Made by a program: the position numbers and the translations under genes. Below, in pieces: positions 35,167-44,237 of a stretch of 64,000 nt of DNA (the stretch's first letter is position 1; every line of letters starts with the position of its first letter). Source of the stretch: Halorubrum salsamenti. Lineage in GTDB: Archaea > Halobacteriota > Halobacteria > Halobacteriales > Haloferacaceae. Below the pieces are notes generated by a model. The model was not told where the DNA came from. It did no database searches and saw only the letters and a program-made list of their open reading frames with translations. The DNA lies in the NCBI RefSeq assembly GCF_007671685.1, contig NZ_VCNL01000001.1, forward strand, positions 372,001 through 436,000, written 5' to 3'.

Positions 35167-36192
35167 TCAGACCACGACCGACCCGAACGGGTACGCCGGC
35201 GAGTCCGCCGACCAGACGGTCCCGGACTCGACGTCGACGAGGGACACGCGGTCGTCGTCGTGGTGCGAGACGGCGAGTCGCCCGTCGTCCACCGGCGTCG
35301 CGACCAGTCCGGGCGCCGGCGTCTCGACGACCGCGCCGTCGAGCGACCGGAGTCGGGCGGCGCCCGCGTCGAGCACCCACCGCTCGCCGGCGGCTTCGAA
35401 GACGTCGACGGGGCGGGAGAACCCCTCGTGGACCGCGATCGGCTCCAGATCCCGGTCGAACTCGTGGACGATACCGTCGCCGCGGCCGGGGACGAACACG
35501 CGGTCCCCGGTCGCGACGAGGTCGTACGGGTCGGCGCCGACCGCGGCCTCGACGCGGACCGGTCCGGCGGAGGCGGCGTCCCCCTCGGCGTCACCGCCGG
35601 TCTCGAAGGCGACCACGCGCGCCCCGCGCTGGTCGACCGCGTATCCTCGGTCCCCGTTCGGCGAGATCGCGACGCCCTGCACGCGTGCGTCCGGCCCGGC
35701 GTCGATCGCGCCGATCCGCTCGTGACTCTCGGTGTCGACGACGTCGACGACGCCCTCGCGGCGGCTCCCGGAGTAGAGCCGGCCGCCGCCCGGGGCGACA
35801 GCGATCTCGTGCGGCTCCGCGCCGACGGCGACGCGGTCGACGAGCGTCAGGGCCTCGGGATCGACGACGGCGAGGGCGTCGCCGGCGGAACAGGAGACGT
35901 ACAGCTCGCCGTTCGCGGCCGCGAAGTGCGACGGCCCCAACACGCCGGTCTCGATCCGGGTCACCCCGCCGCTCGGGTCGACTGCGGTGACGGCGCGCTC
36001 GCCCATGGTCGCGACGACGGTCCGCCCGCGACACGTCGTCGCGTGGACCGGGTGGCTCCCGACCGGGACCTCGCCGAGCCGGTCCCCGGTGTCGAGCGCG
36101 AACAGCGCCAGGAGGTCGTCCCCCTCGCAGGGGACCGCGAGGACGCGGTCGGCGGGGGAGGAGGCGTCGCCCTGCCCGTCGCTCCCGGTCAT
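35167..36192 (-). CDS. YVTN-type beta-propeller protein (no signal peptide)
   Basis: Product of 341 aa made of repeated ~40-residue blades such as VLAVPCEGDDLLALFALDTG, LYVSCSAGDALAVVDPEALT and LYSGSRREGVVDVVDTES. No secretion signal or enzyme motif is apparent. ATG 36192 overlaps the stop of the upstream rhodanese as ATGA; the long upstream frame is a shadow of that gene. It is the third gene of an operon with two Tat lipoproteins. Being apparently cytosolic while its partners are exported is odd; a missed upstream start cannot be excluded. Confidence 0.8.
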   Translation of the reverse strand: MTGSDGQGDASSPADRVLAVPCEGDDLLALFALDTGDRLGEVPVGSHPVHATTCRGRTVVATMGERAVTAVDPSGGVTRIETGVLGPSHFAAANGELYVSCSAGDALAVVDPEALTLVDRVAVGAEPHEIAVAPGGGRLYSGSRREGVVDVVDTESHERIGAIDAGPDARVQGVAISPNGDRGYAVDQRGARVVAFETGGDAEGDAASAGPVRVEAAVGADPYDLVATGDRVFVPGRGDGIVHEFDRDLEPIAVHEGFSRPVDVFEAAGERWVLDAGAARLRSLDGAVVETPAPGLVATPVDDGRLAVSHHDDDRVSLVDVESGTVWSADSPAYPFGSVVV

Positions 36193-37271
36193 CCCGTACA
36201 GGAGAAGTCGCCGCCGCCGTCGTCGCCGCCGACGCTCCCCTCCGTCGGGACCACGGCGTTCGTCGCCGTCTCGACGGGGTACCGCCCGCGGTCGCCCTCG
36301 ACGTTCGCCCACTCGCCGAAGCCGCCGTCGTACAGCCGCACGTCCTCGAACCCGATCGCCTTCAGCGTCACCCACGTCGAGGTCGGGTCCACGTTGTCGT
36401 CGCCGTAGACGACGACGGTCCCGCTCCGGTCCAGTTCGGCCTCGACCTCGTACAGCCGGACCAGTCGGCCGGGGTCGGTCATCCGGCGACCCGCGACGTT
36501 GCCGACCCAGTGCACGTCGACCGCGCCGGGGAGGTGGCCGTGGCGGTCGTGGTCGTCGTTCAGGGCGTCGGAGCCCGCGGCGGCGAGGTACGCCTCGGGC
36601 ACGCGCACGTCGACGAGCCCCGGACCGTCGCCGTTGAACGTCCCGACCCGGTCGGCGAGCCACTCGCGGGTGACCCACGCCGAAGACGCGGGGTCGGGCT
36701 CGTAGTCGGTCGGGGAGATCCGGTCCCGCGATCCCGTTCCGAGGCGACCGTTCCAGGCGGAGAGCCCGCCGTTGAGGACGCGGATCGACCCCTCGTGGCC
36801 GACCGCGGCGAGCGCGAACGCGACGCGGGTGACCCGGGAGCCGACGCTCGCGCCGTAGACGAGCACGTCGTCGTCCGGGGACACGCCGATCTCGCCGAAC
36901 GCGTCCGCGATCGCGTCGGTGTCGGGTACGTCGCCGTCGTCCGTCGACTCGCGGCTCGTGATCGCGTCGAACGGCACGCGCCGGGCGCGGTAGACGCGCT
37001 CCTCGCGGAAGCGCTCCGCGTCGCGCGCGTCGAGCACGACCGCGTCCTCGCGGTTGTCGGCGAGCCAGCTCGGCCCGACGAAGTGACCCACGTTCCCCGA
37101 CACCTCGTTCTGCGCCGCCACGTCGGCGGGGGTCGTCACGCCGAGACAGCCGGCCGTACTCGCCGCGCCCGCGACGGTCGCACCCGCAGCCGCGCGCAGC
37201 AGTCCGCGTCGCGTGGCGTTCTCAGCGTCTCGGGTAGCGCTCTCGTCGTCGTTCGGTGGTTCTCGTGTCAT
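36189..37271 (-). CDS. Tat lipoprotein with tandem rhodanese domains lacking catalytic Cys
   Basis: Product of 360 aa. A twin-Arg leader (ATRRGLLRAAAGATVAG) and lipobox STAGC predict export and lipid anchoring. Two rhodanese domains follow (about 65-190 and 200-345). The active-site loops read VYGASVGSR and VYGDDNVDPTS where active enzymes have a Cys, so neither can form the normal persulfide. The extreme C terminus GGGDFSCTG offers one Cys instead. The start abuts the preceding stop, and the stop overlaps the next start. It may bind or relay sulfur through the tail. Confidence 0.87.
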   Translation of the reverse strand: MTREPPNDDESATRDAENATRRGLLRAAAGATVAGAASTAGCLGVTTPADVAAQNEVSGNVGHFVGPSWLADNREDAVVLDARDAERFREERVYRARRVPFDAITSRESTDDGDVPDTDAIADAFGEIGVSPDDDVLVYGASVGSRVTRVAFALAAVGHEGSIRVLNGGLSAWNGRLGTGSRDRISPTDYEPDPASSAWVTREWLADRVGTFNGDGPGLVDVRVPEAYLAAAGSDALNDDHDRHGHLPGAVDVHWVGNVAGRRMTDPGRLVRLYEVEAELDRSGTVVVYGDDNVDPTSTWVTLKAIGFEDVRLYDGGFGEWANVEGDRGRYPVETATNAVVPTEGSVGGDDGGGDFSCTG

Positions 37272-38630
37272 CTATCCGCAGTAGCAGTGGTCGTCCATAC
37301 ACCACGACGCCTCCATCTCGCCGAACGCGATCCCGAGCGAGGCGAGCGACGCCTGCACCTGCGCCACGGCGTCGCCCTCCGGGCGGACGGTGCCGGCGGC
37401 GGCTCCGGTGGGCGCCTCGCCGACCCCGATCGTCTCGATCACCTCGCGGCTCGCGTGCTCGATCACGGCGACCTGGTTGGCGTCCTGCACGGGGACGTAC
37501 AGCTTCTCGCGGTTCGGTCCCCACGACGCCGAGATGCTGCTCCCGCCGACGTCGAGGGTCGCCTCGTACTCGAAGCTCTCTAAGTCGATCACGCCGACGC
37601 CCTCGCCGGGAATGAGGAGGTACGCGGCCTCGCTGTCCGGGGACACCTCGCTCGTGATCGGCGCGCCGGGGAGCCCGTCGTCGCGGGTGATCTTCCCGAC
37701 CTCCTCGGGGTTCTCGGGGTCGGCGATGTCCCAGAGGCTCTCGGAGCCCTCGCGGGCCACCTCGGGCTCGCCGCCGAGGGTTCCCTCCCCGTTCTCGACG
37801 AGGAGGTACTCCCCGTCGAACGCGGCGGTACACATGAACGGGAGGACGTTCCCCTCGGTGACCGGCTCGCCGGCGTCGACGCGCGCGACCGTCTCGAACG
37901 GGTCGACGCTCAGCACGCGGATCGCCTCGTCGGCGACGTCGACGACGAACGCGTAGTCGCCGTCGGGCCCGAGCGTCATGTCGCAGGGGCCGACGTAGCC
38001 GGTCTCGATCTCCGCGGTCACCTCGCCGAAGGCGTCGCTGTCGCGGTCGGCGTCGACGCGGAAGATCGCGTGGTTCTCGTCGCCCTCGGGCGCCATCCCG
38101 GTGGTCCCGCCCGAGGCGATGAGCAGGTGGTTCCCGTCGGGGGTCACGTTCGGGTAGTTCGGGCCGTAGCCGGTCTCGACGTAGGCGACCTCCTCTAACG
38201 TCCGCTGGTCGACCCCCCGAACGCCGCCGGAGACGTTGAGCCAGAGCACGTCGTGGTCGGCGTCGATCCCGGTGGAGTACTGGTTGGCCGGGAACGAGGC
38301 GGTGGTCCCGAGGAACGCCGAGGTGAGCAGCTCGTCCGACTCGGTGTCGATCACGCTGACGGTTCGGTCCCCGTTGTTGAACACGAACATCGTCGGCTCG
38401 GGGTCGTCCCCGTCCCCGCCGCCTCCCCCGTCGGAACAGCCAGCGAGGGCCGCGGTCGCGCCGACCGCACCGGAACTCTTGAGCAGGCGCCGCCGGGCGA
38501 CCCCCTCCGCGAAGGGGTTCCGGCGGTCGTCGTTCGCCAGATCGCTTCCCTTCGCGGGGCGCGGGTCCGCGCTCCCCTCCGAGGAGCGCGAGTCCGCGTC
38601 GGCCGTCCCGCAGCCGCAGTCGTCGCTCAT
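37272..38630 (-). CDS. Tat lipoprotein beta-propeller (YncE-like) with Cys-rich tail
   Basis: Product of 452 aa. A long polar N-terminal region containing DDCGCG precedes the Tat motif RRRLLKSSGAVG and lipobox ALAGC. The mature part is a YVTN-type propeller (FVFNNGDRTVSVIDTES, YAFVVDVADEAIRVLSVDP, KLYVPVQDANQVAVIEH). The protein ends in SWCMDDHCYCG, with three Cys and one His, a candidate metal- or sulfur-binding tail. ATG 38630 is chosen over 38705. It is the first gene of a zero-gap operon, divergent from the YeeE transporter. Confidence 0.87.
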   Translation of the reverse strand: MSDDCGCGTADADSRSSEGSADPRPAKGSDLANDDRRNPFAEGVARRRLLKSSGAVGATAALAGCSDGGGGGDGDDPEPTMFVFNNGDRTVSVIDTESDELLTSAFLGTTASFPANQYSTGIDADHDVLWLNVSGGVRGVDQRTLEEVAYVETGYGPNYPNVTPDGNHLLIASGGTTGMAPEGDENHAIFRVDADRDSDAFGEVTAEIETGYVGPCDMTLGPDGDYAFVVDVADEAIRVLSVDPFETVARVDAGEPVTEGNVLPFMCTAAFDGEYLLVENGEGTLGGEPEVAREGSESLWDIADPENPEEVGKITRDDGLPGAPITSEVSPDSEAAYLLIPGEGVGVIDLESFEYEATLDVGGSSISASWGPNREKLYVPVQDANQVAVIEHASREVIETIGVGEAPTGAAAGTVRPEGDAVAQVQASLASLGIAFGEMEASWCMDDHCYCG

Positions 38631-38702
38631 ACCCACGCAACGCGTCTCACGGCTAAAGGCCCGCCGGACGCCCCGTTCGTTGCCCCGTGTGTCACGTTCA
38701 GG

Positions 38703-38713
38703 CAATTATTGCA
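38703..38713. promoter_or_regulatory. Palindrome gcaat-t-attgc in lipoprotein/yeeE promoter region
   Basis: An 11-bp palindrome with odd centre, AT-rich against a GC-rich background, located about 73 bp upstream of both divergent start codons (38630 and 38786). It may be an operator shared by the two sulfur-related units, or merely a TATA element. Confidence 0.4.
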
Positions 38714-38785
38714 CCTTTCTCCGACCCGAGGGAGCCGTTACCGTCTCCAGCGACGCTTTAGGTGCGGGCGTAGTGTGTCCCGGTA

Positions 38786-39994
38786 ATGTTGCTGTCGCCC
38801 GTCGCCTACGTCGGCGTCTCTATCGCGGTCGGGTTGTCGTTCGGGGTCCTGCTACAGAAGGCGCGGTTCTGCTTCGTCAGCGCCTTCCGCGATTTCGTCG
38901 CGTTCAAAGACACCCGCGTGCTGAAGGGGCTGCTCGCGGGGATCGCCGTGATGACCGTGTTCTGGAGCGTGCAGGCCACGTTCGGCTACTTCCGCGGCTT
39001 CTGGACGCCCGCCTGGGGGCTCGGATCGCTGTTCGGCGGGTTCGTCTTCGGGCTCGGGATGACCCTGGCCGGCGGCTGCGCGTCCGGCACCCTCTACCGC
39101 GCCGGACAGGGGTACCTCCAGTTCTGGCTCGTGCTCCTCTTCATGTTCGTCGGCTACGTCCTGTTCGCGTTCGCGTTCCCCGTCGCGGAGACGTACTACT
39201 TCGCGACGCTGAACCCGTTCGAGGGGCGGACGCTGTACCTCTCCCTCCCGTTTTCGCCGGCGGTTATCGGAGCCGGGGCCGTCGCGCTCGGCACCCTCGC
39301 GTACGCGTTCGTGAAGGGGAGAAGTCAGCTCCCCGACGACCCCTCCGGCGGGACCGGCGTGGGCGCCGACACCCGCGCGCAGGCGGCGGTCGGTGCCTCC
39401 CGGACGCTCTCGGCCGTCTCGGTCGGCCTGCGAGGTATCGCTGACGGGACCGTCGAATACGTCCGCGGGCTTCGCGACGACGACCGGCCGCTGACGGTCC
39501 GGCTCCGCGACTCGTGGGACGCCCGGACCGCGGGCGTGGCGATGGCGCTCGTCGCGAGCCTCTGGTTCTACGTGCACGGCCACTGGGCGATCACCGGCAG
39601 CGAGGCGCGCTGGGCCGGCTACCTGCTTGCGGGCGCCGGGTTCGACGTGGCGAGCGTCGAGTACTGGGGATCGATCCTGTTCCGCGACGGGAACATCTCG
39701 CTGACCATCGACATGGTGATGATCGCGTCGCTCATCGTCGGCTCCTTCGTCGCCGCGTACGCCTCCGGCGACTTCCGGATCCGAAAGCCGAAGCTGAACC
39801 GGGTCCCGAACTACGCGGTCGGCGGGCTCCTGATGGGCGTCGGCTCGCGGCTCGCGGCGGGCTGTAACATCGCGAACCTCTTCTCGGGGATCGCGCTGCT
39901 GTCGGTCCACTCCTTCCTCGCCGGCGCGGGGATCATCCTCGGCGTCTACGTGATGACCCACTACATGTACCGCGAGGTCGGCTGCGCGATTTAA
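38786..39994 (+). CDS. YeeE/YedE family transporter (sulfur compound uptake)
   Basis: Product of 402 aa with about 11-12 hydrophobic segments in two similar halves. The signature GGCASGTLYRAGQG (about 99-112) in the first half and AAGCNIANLFSG in the second, each with one Cys, are the conserved Cys motifs of YeeE/YedE (TsuA-type) proteins that conduct thiosulfate. A charged loop of ~70 residues joins the halves. Divergent from the lipoprotein operon and followed by a rhodanese and a TusA-like carrier on the opposite strand. Thiosulfate uptake is the best guess. Confidence 0.9.
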   Translation: MLLSPVAYVGVSIAVGLSFGVLLQKARFCFVSAFRDFVAFKDTRVLKGLLAGIAVMTVFWSVQATFGYFRGFWTPAWGLGSLFGGFVFGLGMTLAGGCASGTLYRAGQGYLQFWLVLLFMFVGYVLFAFAFPVAETYYFATLNPFEGRTLYLSLPFSPAVIGAGAVALGTLAYAFVKGRSQLPDDPSGGTGVGADTRAQAAVGASRTLSAVSVGLRGIADGTVEYVRGLRDDDRPLTVRLRDSWDARTAGVAMALVASLWFYVHGHWAITGSEARWAGYLLAGAGFDVASVEYWGSILFRDGNISLTIDMVMIASLIVGSFVAAYASGDFRIRKPKLNRVPNYAVGGLLMGVGSRLAAGCNIANLFSGIALLSVHSFLAGAGIILGVYVMTHYMYREVGCAI

Positions 39995-40415: not shown

Positions 40416-40751
40416 TCAGGCGTCCGCCGCCGCGCCGGCCTCCAGATCGAAGTCCCACTCCTCGTAGCCGCCGGCCATGCTGGCGACGAGCACGTCGTCC
40501 TCGACGCCCTCATAGCTCTGGATCAGCATCGCGGCCTGCTTCGACGACTGGCCGACCGGGCACGCACAGACCACGTCGGTGTCGTCCCAGTCGATGTCGG
40601 GGACCTGCGAGGGGAGGTCGCCCAGCGGCACGTTGATCGCGCCGGGGATGTGCCCCTGCTCGTACTGTTCGGGCGGTCGCGTGTCGATGACGCGGATGTC
40701 GCCCTGCTGAACGCGCTCGTTGACTTCCTCGGGGGTGAGTTCTTCGACCAT
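40416..40751 (-). CDS. Single-domain rhodanese sulfurtransferase
   Basis: Product of 111 aa. Features: VIDTRPPEQYEQGHIPGAIN (the CH2A-type motif) and the active-site loop CACPVGQSSKQAA, with Cys64 as the likely persulfide site and Cys62 two residues before it. No signal peptide, so cytosolic. ATG 40751 lies 2 bp after the stop of the TusA-like gene, so the two are one unit: a carrier with its sulfur donor or acceptor. Confidence 0.92.
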   Translation of the reverse strand: MVEELTPEEVNERVQQGDIRVIDTRPPEQYEQGHIPGAINVPLGDLPSQVPDIDWDDTDVVCACPVGQSSKQAAMLIQSYEGVEDDVLVASMAGGYEEWDFDLEAGAAADA

Positions 40752-40753
40752 GA

Positions 40754-41053
40754 TTACTCCTTCCGCATGAAGATGCGGTAGCGACCGTCGCCCGACTTCC
40801 ACACCTTGGCGGTCGCGTCGTCGCCGACCGCCTTCGGGACGTTCTCGGTGCTCGGGACGTGGTCGGTCTTCTGGACCAGCACGTCGCCCGCGTCGAGCCC
40901 GGAGATCGCCTTCTTCGCCTCGACCTGCGGGTACGGACAGACCTCGCCGGTCATGTCCTGTACCTCGGTCGCGTCTGCCAAGAGCGCTTCGGCGGTCTCG
41001 TCGTCGAGCTCGTCGGGCATCTCGACGACGTCGTCCCACGATGGTTGGCTCAT
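40754..41053 (-). CDS. TusA/SirA-like sulfur carrier protein
   Basis: Product of 99 aa. An acidic N-terminal 30 residues lead to the family motif CPYPQVEAKKAI with Cys39, then GLDAGDVLVQKTDHVP and a final beta strand RYRIFMRKE. TusA proteins hold a persulfide on this Cys and pass it to tRNA thiolation or cofactor pathways. ATG 41053 is chosen over 41137. It is upstream of the rhodanese and divergent from the cysteine synthase. Confidence 0.9.
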   Translation of the reverse strand: MSQPSWDDVVEMPDELDDETAEALLADATEVQDMTGEVCPYPQVEAKKAISGLDAGDVLVQKTDHVPSTENVPKAVGDDATAKVWKSGDGRYRIFMRKE

Positions 41054-41203
41054 ACGGGCCGTTACGCGTCTGTCCCGGTAACCCCTTTCGTGACCGGCAG
41101 TCTTCTCCCGTATCTCGGACGGACGATCGCGGCGCACGACCGCGATAGGCGTCGAGACAACCGTTTCCGTCGGACTCTTATCGGGCTGCGATCTACGGAA
41201 CCC

Positions 41204-42223
41204 ATGAGCGAGTACGTCGTCGACGAGTCGACGATCTTCGAGACGCCGCTTCTAGAGCTCGATCTCGACATCGAGTCGGACGCGGACGTGTACGCGAAAG
41301 CCGAGTGGTTCAACCTCTACGACGCCCCGCACGGCGGCGGCTCGGTCAAGTCCCGGATCGCGAAGGGGATGCTGGACGGCGCCGAGGAGCGCGGGGACCT
41401 CGACCCCGGCGTCACCGTCATCGAGCCGACCTCGGGCAACACGGGCAGCGAGGTGGCGCGGCTCGCGAACGCCCGCGGCTACGACGTGGAGATCGTCATG
41501 CCCGACAACGCCGCCGGCGGGAAGGTCGACGCCGTCCGCGACGCCGGCGCGGAGATCCACTTCGTCGACGCCAATCTCGGCTACGACGCCGTCATCGAGC
41601 GCTGCGAGGAGATCGTCGCCGCGGACCCCGGCGCTTACTACCGACCGAACCAGTACGAGAACCCCGACAACCCCGGCACCCACGAGCGGACGACCGCCCG
41701 GGAGATCTACGAGGCGACCGACGGCGAGGTGACCCACTTCGTCGCCGGCGTCGGTACCGGGGGGACGATCACCGGGACGGGGCGCGGGCTGACCGACCTG
41801 ACCGACGGCGCGGCGGAGATCGTCGGCTTCGAGCCCGACGAACAGCTCCACGCCATCGACGGCCTGAAGTACCTCAAGTCGGGCGACCACTACCACCCCG
41901 ACACGTACGACGAGTCCGTCCTCGACCGGACGGAGTACGTCACGACGTCGGACGCCTACGACCGGGCGCGGGCGCTCCGCGAGCGCTACCTGGACGACCC
42001 GGTGCCGATCGCTGACCTCGGCCGACACGACGAGGCGACGGTCCGCGAACACCTCCGGGTCGGCGACCAGTTCGTCGTGGGCACGTCCTCGGGCGGGGGC
42101 GCGGCGGCGGTCGCCGGGCTCGACGCGGCCGGCGACATCGCGGACGACGACGTGGTCGTGTTCATGCTGTGCGACCGCGGCGACAAGTACGCCGACATCC
42201 CGCTGTGGGAGGACTATTTATAA
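41204..42223 (+). CDS. PLP-dependent cysteine synthase family protein
   Basis: Product of 339 aa, beta family of PLP enzymes. The PLP lysine is in GGGSVKSRIAKGM, the substrate loop is PTSGNTGSEVARLA, and the phosphate-binding glycine loop is GVGTGGTITGTGR. These fit O-acetylserine or O-phosphoserine sulfhydrylases. The substrate cannot be told. It lies between the TusA-like gene and the ubiquitin-like gene, so sulfide or persulfide assimilation is a likely role. Confidence 0.9.
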   Translation: MSEYVVDESTIFETPLLELDLDIESDADVYAKAEWFNLYDAPHGGGSVKSRIAKGMLDGAEERGDLDPGVTVIEPTSGNTGSEVARLANARGYDVEIVMPDNAAGGKVDAVRDAGAEIHFVDANLGYDAVIERCEEIVAADPGAYYRPNQYENPDNPGTHERTTAREIYEATDGEVTHFVAGVGTGGTITGTGRGLTDLTDGAAEIVGFEPDEQLHAIDGLKYLKSGDHYHPDTYDESVLDRTEYVTTSDAYDRARALRERYLDDPVPIADLGRHDEATVREHLRVGDQFVVGTSSGGGAAAVAGLDAAGDIADDDVVVFMLCDRGDKYADIPLWEDYL

Positions 42224-42270
42224 AGAGAGTCGACCGCGTCGGCGTCGGTGACGTATCCGCTGCCGACGGT

Positions 42271-42534
42271 CTACCGTCCGCCGCTGGCCGCCGGGATGAC
42301 CCGGACCTGCGCGTCGTCAGGGACTTCCGCGTCGAGGCCGTCGACGGGCGTGCCCTCGACGTACACGTTGATGAACTCCTTGATCTCGCCGTCTTCGATC
42401 ACGCTGTCTCTGAGTTCCGAGCCGTGCTCGTCCGCGTGGTTCTCGAACAGTTCGCGGACCGTCTCGCCGGCGACCTCGACTTCCGAGGTCGACGACCCCC
42501 CGACGAGCACGGCCGGCAGTTTGATCGTGGCCAT
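42271..42534 (-). CDS. Ubiquitin-like MoaD/SAMP-type protein ending in Gly-Gly-Arg
   Basis: Product of 87 aa with a beta-grasp fold: VEVAGETVRELFENHADEHG and EFINVYVEGTPVDGLD. Such proteins are adenylated at a C-terminal Gly-Gly by UbaA/MoeB-type enzymes and used as sulfur carriers or protein modifiers (SAMPs). Here the ending is PAASGGR: the diglycine (85-86) is followed by an extra Arg. The presence of the E1-like gene 205 bp away and a JAMM gene beyond supports a modifier/carrier role, but the Arg would have to be removed or tolerated. Confidence 0.88.
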   Translation of the reverse strand: MATIKLPAVLVGGSSTSEVEVAGETVRELFENHADEHGSELRDSVIEDGEIKEFINVYVEGTPVDGLDAEVPDDAQVRVIPAASGGR

Positions 42535-42739
42535 ACGTCCCGTTCGGTGCCCACTTCAAAAAGGGACGCGCCGGCGGCAACCTCCCTCCCTCGTCTGAGA
42601 CGAAGACGACCGGCAGGGCGCAACGGCTGACTCCCGGTCAGAACGCGATCGATCGTGGGCCGCGATCGCACCTCCGAGAAGCCGGCAGTACCTCCGGTGG
42701 GCGGCCTGCTTATGCGTTTCCGGTGCGAAGTGGTACCGA

Positions 42740-43603
42740 ATGAGCGATCTCGACCTCGACCCCACCCAGCTCGACCGGTACTCCAGACACATCATCATGG
42801 ACGACGTGGGTCCCGAGGGCCAGAAGGCCCTGCTCGACGCCGAGGTGCTCGTTCTCGGCGCCGGCGGGCTCGGCGCGCCGATCATCCAGTACCTCGCAGC
42901 GGCCGGCGTCGGCACTCTCGGGATCGCCGACGACGACGAGGTTGAGCTGTCGAACCTCCAGCGCCAGGTGATCCACGGGAACGACGACGTGGGCCGCAAG
43001 AAGGTCGACTCCGCCGCCGACTTCGTCGAACAGCTCAACCCGGACGTGGACGTGCGGAAACACGAGCTCCGCGTCCGCCCCGACAACATCGAGGACCTCA
43101 TCGACGGCTACGACTTCGTCGTCGACGGGACGGACAACTTCGCGACGCGGTACCTCGTCAACGACGCCTGCACGCTCGCCGGGATCCCCTTCTCGCACGG
43201 CTCCATCTTCAAGTTCGAGGGGCAGGTGACGACGTTCGCGGGCGGCGACGACTCCCCGTGTTACCGCTGTCTGTTCCCCGAGGCGCCGCCGGCCGGGATG
43301 GTCCCGAACTGCGCGACCGCGGGCGTCCTCGGCGTCCTGCCGGGCACCGTCGGCTGTCTGCAGGCGACCGAGACGGTCAAACACATCATCGGCGAGGGCG
43401 AGACGCTCGACGGCTCGATGCTGTTCTTCGACGCGCTCGACATGGAGTTCGACAAGGTCGAGATCCCCAAGCGCGACGACTGCCCCGTCTGCGGCGACGA
43501 CCCCGCCATCGAGTCGGTCCACGACGTGGAGTACACCGCCTCCTGCGCGATCGATGTCGGCGGCGACGACGAGGCGGAGCCGGAGATCGAAGCGAGCGAC
43601 TGA
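42740..43603 (+). CDS. ubaA: Ubiquitin-like activating enzyme E1 (UbaA/ThiF/MoeB type)
   Basis: Product of 287 aa. The nucleotide site is VLVLGAGGLGAPIIQYLAAA (37-56) with the acidic DDDEVELSNLQRQ; the catalytic Cys is likely Cys191 in PNCATAGVLG; Zn ligands are C174, C177, C248, C251 (CYRC, CPVC). This is the E1 that adenylates SAMP/MoaD C termini in haloarchaea for protein conjugation, tRNA thiolation and molybdopterin. ATG 42740. It is divergent from the MoaD-like gene and convergent with the JAMM gene. Confidence 0.92.
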   Translation: MSDLDLDPTQLDRYSRHIIMDDVGPEGQKALLDAEVLVLGAGGLGAPIIQYLAAAGVGTLGIADDDEVELSNLQRQVIHGNDDVGRKKVDSAADFVEQLNPDVDVRKHELRVRPDNIEDLIDGYDFVVDGTDNFATRYLVNDACTLAGIPFSHGSIFKFEGQVTTFAGGDDSPCYRCLFPEAPPAGMVPNCATAGVLGVLPGTVGCLQATETVKHIIGEGETLDGSMLFFDALDMEFDKVEIPKRDDCPVCGDDPAIESVHDVEYTASCAIDVGGDDEAEPEIEASD

Positions 43604-43654
43604 GGCCGGACGCTCGGGGAGTTCCGCTTTTCCGCGCGATCGCTGATGGCGATG

Positions 43655-43775
43655 TCGTCATTAAAACCCGAGAGCGTTAGCGGCAGCGGTTTATAAGTAA
43701 ACGATGCGGTGGCGCGTGCGAGGTCGCCGCCGGCGACTGGGCTTTGGAGGTGTCCGCCGCCGATCCGGTGTCAGT
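43655..43775 (+). repeat. Dispersed intergenic repeat, copy C (short)
   Basis: In the 205-bp gap between convergent ubaA and JAMM genes. Contains cagcggtttataagtaaac (shared with B), gcggtggcgcgtgcgaggtcg (shared with A) and gactgggctttggaggtg (shared with B). It looks like a deletion derivative retaining both outer modules. Confidence 0.72.
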
Positions 43776-43808
43776 TACTTGTAAACAACTGAACGATCCT
43801 TAGCCGTC

Positions 43809-44237
43809 CTACCGCTCGCTCTGCACGGAAACGGTCTCCTGCTCGAACCCGTCGTCGTCGCCGCGCCAACGCCACGAGCCGACGAACGGGTAGCCGTCGA
43901 GCGCGCAGATGACGTACGAGTGGCCGGGCCACGTCGCCCGCGCGGCGTCCGTCTCGCTCGGGTGCGTCGGTCCGGTCGGGTGCGAGTGGTAGAACCCGAC
44001 CACGTCGAGCCCGTCCTCTTCGATCGTCTCGATGAGTTCGAACTGCTCCTCGGGGTCGATCAGGTACCTGATCTGAGGCGTCTCCGCGACGTTCTCGGCC
44101 TGGTACGTGTCGGTGACGACGCTCGGCTCCCCGTCGTCGCCGTGGGTGCCCGCGAGGACGCCGCAGACCTCCGCCTCGCCGCCGCCGTACGCGTGGTACA
44201 CGATGTCGTCGTACACGGCCCGTGAGAGTTCGATCAT
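43809..44237 (-). CDS. JAMM/MPN+ metalloprotease (desampylase-like)
   Basis: Product of 142 aa with the full JAMM motif: Glu23 in EAEVCGVLAG, then H84-S-H86-P with Asp97 (YHSHPTGPTHPSETD). This zinc isopeptidase family includes HvJAMM1, which removes SAMPs from target proteins. The neighbourhood (MoaD/SAMP-like gene and E1) argues for the same role. It lacks extra domains. Normal size for the archaeal form. Convergent with ubaA. Confidence 0.92.
   Translation of the reverse strand: MIELSRAVYDDIVYHAYGGGEAEVCGVLAGTHGDDGEPSVVTDTYQAENVAETPQIRYLIDPEEQFELIETIEEDGLDVVGFYHSHPTGPTHPSETDAARATWPGHSYVICALDGYPFVGSWRWRGDDDGFEQETVSVQSER

Follow-up and report, generated by a model that had tools for sequence, protein, structure and literature searches.

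A 64,000-nucleotide stretch of the Halorubrum salsamenti genome (contig NZ_VCNL01000001.1, positions 372,001 to 436,000; hereafter the window, to which all coordinates refer) contains a gene island that is built around a YeeE/YedE importer and that can be plausibly, if far from assuredly, interpreted as a system for assimilatory uptake of thiosulfate or other sulfane sulfur, which would be converted to cysteine via a SAMP thiocarboxylate. The island encodes two exported lipoproteins with Cys-containing C-terminal tails, namely, a propeller (P1) and a tandem rhodanese (RHOD), along with another propeller (P3) and a set of cytoplasmic sulfur transfer and cysteine synthase-like proteins. We infer from this gene content what the substrate is, which way the sulfur is passed on and how each chemical step proceeds. 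Sulfane sulfur import for cysteine production is suggested by the conjunction of a YeeE channel and a CPxP protein, an analog of an external sulfur carrier, and the ThiS-E1-JAB-cysteine synthase gene set. The parts each resemble known systems; the combination and the rhodanese with a tail-borne Cys are new, and searches of open-license papers on this gene composition, on haloarchaeal cysteine biosynthesis with thiosulfate and on archaeal CysO/JAMM systems turned up no account of the island. The wider proposition is tentative and rather doubtful: archaeal cysteine biosynthesis would be fed externally, with sulfur passing from a tail-Cys rhodanese through YeeE to a dedicated SAMP thiocarboxylate and on to a cysteine synthase, and P1 would represent one more family, a widespread one, of exported propellers with Cys tails. 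The strongest alternatives are a different destination of the sulfur, metal binding by the tails, and sensing or detoxification.

The genes for P1 (37272-38630), RHOD (36189-37271) and P3 (35167-36192) follow each other in this order on the minus strand, such that RHOD starts at the base after the P1 stop codon (0 bp), and the start of P3 overlaps the RHOD stop codon by 4 bp (ATGA). The YeeE gene (38786-39994, plus strand) is divergent from P1, with 155 bp between the two. An earlier note on this DNA had described two Tat (twin-arginine translocation) lipoproteins with Cys tails that are joined without gaps to a third protein, a propeller, and face a YeeE gene, and both the coordinates and the domain matches agree with that description.

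RHOD (PF00581, E=4e-29, two domains) starts with TRRGLL...TAGC and ends with GGGDFSCTG. The mature protein contains a single Cys, located in the tail DFSCTG (36192-36209, minus strand), and neither of the two active-site loops has one. This tail Cys is present in all 20 aligned orthologs, and no other Cys of the mature protein is invariant; the catalytic position is occupied by Gly or Glu in all orthologs except for one (locus L107 of genome G063), as is the case in the degenerate loop GDDNVDPTSTW (36372-36404, minus strand). In a profile alignment, the RHOD segment YGDDNVDPTSTW matches the YC catalytic loop of thiosulfate sulfurtransferases in the PDB, with YC replaced by YG, which indicates that the catalytic Cys was lost. 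Thus, the Cys in the loop of the C-terminal domain that characterizes active thiosulfate/mercaptopyruvate sulfurtransferases is missing. The AlphaFold2 (AF2) model of RHOD is of moderate quality (predicted local distance difference test score, pLDDT, of 68, from 20 aligned rows), and the tail, with a pLDDT of ∼30-40, is probably flexible. The more distant G063 ortholog possesses the catalytic Cys along with a tail ending in DAFSC, suggesting that the tail predates the loss of the catalytic Cys. The corresponding locus (G063 L107:8196-13036) encompasses four tandem genes for exported rhodaneses between YeeE and P3; three of these proteins have the catalytic Cys without a tail Cys, and the last one has both. 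The exchange, in RHOD, of the active-site Cys for one in the tail offers a clear and testable example of catalytic residue relocation.

The importer belongs to the YeeE family (PF04143, E=1e-54, 186.6 bits against a cut-off of 27) and has Cys at all three positions aligned with C22, C91 and C293 of the Spirochaeta thermophila YeeE. Its score with the curated TsuA equivalog model is 144 bits, below the cut-off of 400, so that the assignment was made to the YeeE family only. Transport of selenium rather than sulfur, as in YedE-type selenium transporters, appears very unlikely: the selenium transporter model YedE/FdhT is the top NCBIfam match of this protein by E-value, albeit under its cut-off, but every seleno model scores far under cut-off, and the pairing of YeeE with TusA fits thiosulfate import. 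A TusA-like gene with the CPxP motif is located beside YeeE here, and the same holds for most of the other YeeE loci of haloarchaea that were examined.

The best clue to the purpose of the island is the cytoplasmic wing on the YeeE side (40416-44237), which was absent from the earlier note. It consists of genes for a cytoplasmic single-domain rhodanese with the active site CACPVGQSS (40416-40751, minus strand; PF00581) that is kept beside YeeE, a TusA/YeeD-like protein with a CPYP motif (40754-41053, minus strand; PF01206, 44.8 bits, cut-off 28.6), a divergent cysteine synthase-like pyridoxal phosphate enzyme (41204-42223, plus strand; PF00291), a SAMP/ThiS-like protein with the C-terminus SGGR (42271-42534, minus strand), a UbaA-type E1 (42740-43603, plus strand; NF047750, 478 bits, cut-off 450) and a JAMM metalloprotease of the desampylase type (43809-44237, minus strand; NF041370, 155 bits, cut-off 130) that contains the HxHx(10)D motif, HSHPTGPTHPSETD. 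The SAMP passes the general ThiS model PF02597 and scores below the cut-off of the SAMP1 model NF041918 (43.7 versus 60). In all examined SAMP orthologs, GG is followed by one to three further residues (R, Q or 2-3 residues), which implies trimming, with the JAMM protease being the obvious candidate. Another UbaA, 65% identical to that of the island, is encoded on contig 15 of the same genome, so the island E1 is an extra, second copy.

The evolutionary coherence of the island was assessed in 392 genomes of the haloarchaeal order, using thresholds of at least 57% identity for RHOD and at least 70% for the YeeE clade. RHOD and this YeeE clade are found in the identical set of 17 genomes; P3 is present in the same 17 and in G063, where YeeE adjoins RHOD homologs; and P1 is present in 16 of the 17, being reduced in the remaining one (G385). 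Thirteen of the island genomes belong to the genus of the window, and the others are G115, from the same family, G106, and the genus of G013 and G028, so that the number of independent events is smaller than the number of genomes. Among named records, the island is found in Halobellus clavatus as well, and Halorubrum saccharovorum and H. lipolyticum also have it. In most island copies with sufficient flanking sequence, the wing genes occur together with YeeE, P1, RHOD and P3, in more than one order; across Halorubrum, Halobellus clavatus and lineages of other families, the order is shuffled and the content is retained. In Halobellus clavatus (L161), the wing is divided across both sides of the YeeE-RHOD group, and in G364, the cysteine synthase and SAMP genes are on a separate contig and still present. 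In a survey of 80 genomes picked to represent island, other-YeeE and YeeE-less cases, both SAMP and the cysteine synthase were detected in all 17 island genomes, and SAMP was detected in only 6 of the 63 others (Fisher P=1e-12, a value that ignores kinship). The region between P1 and YeeE (38631-38785, no strand) is 154-156 bp long in nearly all Halorubrum copies and contains a perfect palindrome, GCAATTATTGC, at 38702-38712; the GCAA-N3-TTGC element is present in Halobellus clavatus too, and the role of this region in regulation is putative.

Combining these features, the following pathway can be proposed. Outside the membrane, the lipid-anchored RHOD and P1 would hold sulfane sulfur, as persulfide or thiosulfonate originating from thiosulfate or polysulfide, on their flexible Cys tails, from which it would be delivered to the YeeE channel with its three Cys. 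In this scheme, RHOD would not function as a normal rhodanese but as a carrier, with the tail Cys replacing the catalytic Cys as the sulfur-bearing group. Inside the cell, TusA and the small rhodanese would pass the sulfur to the dedicated UbaA/SAMP pair. The JAMM protease would trim the GG-X tail of SAMP, after which UbaA would activate SAMP, and the sulfur would be incorporated into a SAMP thiocarboxylate. The cysteine synthase-like enzyme would then make cysteine from this thiocarboxylate, with the product freed by JAMM. P3 probably contributes to this pathway in the cytoplasm, as an enzyme or sensor.

Several observations weigh against this scheme. The sequence of YeeE does not fix its substrate. 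The scores of the pyridoxal phosphate enzyme are under the cut-offs of the cysM and cysKM models (for cysKM, 235 bits versus 344), and the genome encodes other members of this family. G063 has YeeE, RHOD, P3 and TusA without SAMP and the cysteine synthase. In ∼50 of the 392 genomes, P1 is encoded without RHOD, P3 or the island YeeE nearby, that is, P1 is a broader family that was recruited into the island and has a general role elsewhere. Finally, tRNA thiolation or molybdopterin synthesis would be equally conceivable as the purpose of SAMP, E1 and rhodanese, and in Haloferax, UbaA and SAMPs have been linked to tRNA thiolation and molybdopterin synthase (PMC4048286, PMC4443979). Accordingly, the same importer and carriers might supply sulfur for tRNA thiolation, molybdopterin or protein sampylation, with a different task for the cysteine synthase-like enzyme, and the divergence of the latter is compatible with this possibility. 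However, the housekeeping UbaA is already encoded elsewhere in the genome, and the cysteine synthase and SAMP are kept throughout the island genomes even when unlinked from YeeE, so that we regard a different destination of the sulfur as rather unlikely. Haloarchaeal SAMPs are studied for their part in protein modification and in the thiolation of tRNAs and cofactors; with another E1/SAMP/JAMM set associated with an importer and a cysteine synthase, SAMPs would gain a role in assimilation, which is testable by single deletions.

P1 starts with RRRLLK...LAGC and ends with SWCMDDHCYCG. The Tat and lipobox assignments for P1 and RHOD are motif-based, and the twin-arginine motif and the lipobox Cys of both proteins are kept in most relatives. 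The AF2 model of P1 (pLDDT 88) is a confident 7-bladed propeller of the YVTN type (TIGR02276 repeat), with low confidence for the last residues, and 1l0q is the closest match by both sequence and fold; no informative family was found for P1 or P3 in Pfam and NCBIfam past the propeller repeats. The P1 tail, CMDDHCYCG (37275-37301, minus strand; C444, C449 and C451), conforms to the pattern C-x(3,4)-C-x-C that is found near the C-terminus in 101 of the 102 distinct P1 ends (52 with the four-residue and 49 with the three-residue spacer). Among the other ORFs (open reading frames) predicted in the same loci, 2 of 923 contain at least three Cys within the last 15 residues (a third hit, itself a P1, is not counted), so that the P1 motif exceeds what chance would give, although these counts are rough because the background ORFs and the neighbor lists come from a simple ORF-calling script. 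Row L121 of alignment A2 is out of frame and was disregarded. In the P1 alignment (55 rows), C449 and C451 are invariant and C444 is conserved in >90% of the sequences; within the propeller, C216 and M266 are invariant, and H187 is nearly so. In G385 (L106:8497-8523, minus strand), P1 has shrunk to an 8-codon ORF, MSDHCYCG, between intact RHOD and YeeE genes, which is either a natural internal deletion that spared the start and the tail or an assembly artifact.

We infer the load of the tails from sequence features, and it could be either sulfane sulfur or a metal. If the tails bind Cu, Hg or a similar metal, P1 and RHOD would be traps or chaperones, and the sulfur imported by YeeE would be used only for the cell's response. 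The three-Cys motif of P1, together with C216, M266 and H187, is compatible with such a role, and stand-alone P1 genes are sometimes located near genes for a MerA/mycothione-reductase-like flavoprotein and an ArsR-like helix-turn-helix protein. We nevertheless consider metal binding unlikely given that the RHOD tail contains one Cys, whereas the catalytic Cys that would carry sulfur in a rhodanese was lost from this protein, and that the genes co-occurring with RHOD are those for sulfur transfer.

The possibility that P1 is a YeeE-specific protein is ruled out by the orthologs that are not near YeeE, and P1 therefore cannot be defined by sulfur hand-over to this importer. In the named collection, 54 of the 76 P1 loci have no RHOD, P3 or island YeeE nearby. 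A quick phylogenetic tree of P1, in which the placement of the long branch L163 is unsure, consists of two deep subfamilies, and island P1s come from both, which implies that P1 genes came to lie next to RHOD on more than one occasion. Of the 38 genomes with a DsrE-like gene, 7 have this gene within ∼16 kb of a stand-alone P1, compared with 0.3 expected; given this enrichment, P1 may have a general role that involves thiols or sulfane, or else a metal. In L046, L041, L044 and L087, the stand-alone P1 is near a gene for a Tat DUF3179 protein, in some cases accompanied by a small membrane protein with a CCGP motif.

P3 begins directly at the first propeller strand, and none of the aligned orthologs has a signal sequence, so P3 is probably cytoplasmic. 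Its invariant residues include H50, H89 and H128, which are spaced by 39 residues and occupy the equivalent place in successive blades, as well as H310, C22 and C101; this constellation looks like a metal-binding or active site. In relatives, P3 is followed by a DsrE-like gene, a gene for an Lpd/mycothione-reductase-like flavoprotein, or a SaoD/DsrE gene (L071:3896-5900; L073:5349; L080:4799), and in the window, by a (d)CMP kinase gene instead. The SaoD/DsrE-family gene (NF040913, 190 versus a cut-off of 152) is next to P3 in many relatives; the window lacks this arrangement. These DsrE-family neighbors in many copies, and the DsrE-like gene enriched near stand-alone P1, bring up sensing or detoxification of reactive sulfane, whereby the external proteins would quench or report polysulfide, and P3 and the internal DsrE proteins would respond; SoxT1B is a known YeeE-like signaling importer (PMC11582611). 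The combination of the importer with SAMP, E1, JAMM and cysteine synthase is a better match for assimilation, and we consider the sensing function quite improbable.

The proposal of the earlier note that all this is an extracytoplasmic system in which Cys tails hand sulfane sulfur or metal to the importer survives in part. The extracytoplasmic label applies to P1 and RHOD alone, given that P3 lacks a signal sequence. RHOD and P3 track the YeeE clade genome by genome and are adjacent to it, and the tails are conserved almost without exception in RHOD and P1. Of the two findings that the note named as refuting, orthologs without tails did not turn up, and P1 orthologs away from YeeE did. The hand-over itself is consistent with the co-occurrence of RHOD and P3 with the importer, the invariant RHOD tail and the relay Cys of YeeE; P1 mostly occurs elsewhere, and P3 is probably cytoplasmic.

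Comparison with characterized systems shows to what extent the island departs from each. P1 has the same fold as the archaeal YVTN surface-layer propeller 1l0q and the YncE-like propellers but differs in having the Cys tail and the invariant C216, and none of the named whole-protein families is matched above its curated cut-off. RHOD shares the tandem rhodanese fold with thiosulfate sulfurtransferase/SseA, from which it differs in being an exported lipoprotein, with the catalytic Cys replaced and a Cys in the tail. YeeE channels pass thiosulfate along three Cys to a CPxP protein (PMC11073785). The YeeE-YeeD (TsuA-TsuB) pairs of E. coli and Spirochaeta thermophila have in common with the island the Sulf_transp channel with three relay Cys and the adjoining CPxP protein of the TusA family; in the island, a pair of external lipoproteins with Cys tails, a propeller and a separate rhodanese of the cytoplasm come in addition, and the YeeE scores under the TsuA cut-off.

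According to the model proposed for Hyphomicrobium denitrificans, SoxT1A is supplied by an external persulfide carrier with the assistance of a protein that has a Cys motif at its C-terminus, and a rhodanese, DsrE and TusA act inside the cell; the route by which sulfane sulfur reaches YeeE-type channels is an open question in bacteria too (PMC11582611), and RHOD is a simple candidate for the carrier. By analogy, RHOD and P1 would be counterparts of the carriers of the SoxT1A module by function, not by descent. In that module, however, SoxYZ serves as the carrier, alongside a DsbA-like thioredoxin, and oxidation is the fate of the sulfur, whereas the island contains an assimilation module instead; no Sox or sHdr sulfur-oxidation genes were found among the neighbors of the importer, the range of this search being the neighborhoods rather than whole genomes.

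The CysO-CysM-Mec system of Mycobacterium is the biochemical example of the ThiS/MoaD-E1-JAB-cysteine synthase type of operon. Such operons are a known bacterial class (4c, Iyer et al. 2006), with a suspected link to cysteine production (PMC1779556). All four genes of this class, for a SAMP/ThiS-like protein, E1, JAMM and cysteine synthase, are found together in the window and in other copies of the island, which differs from class 4c, listed from bacteria only, in being archaeal, in that its E1 is not fused to a rhodanese, and in being tied to YeeE and the external carriers.

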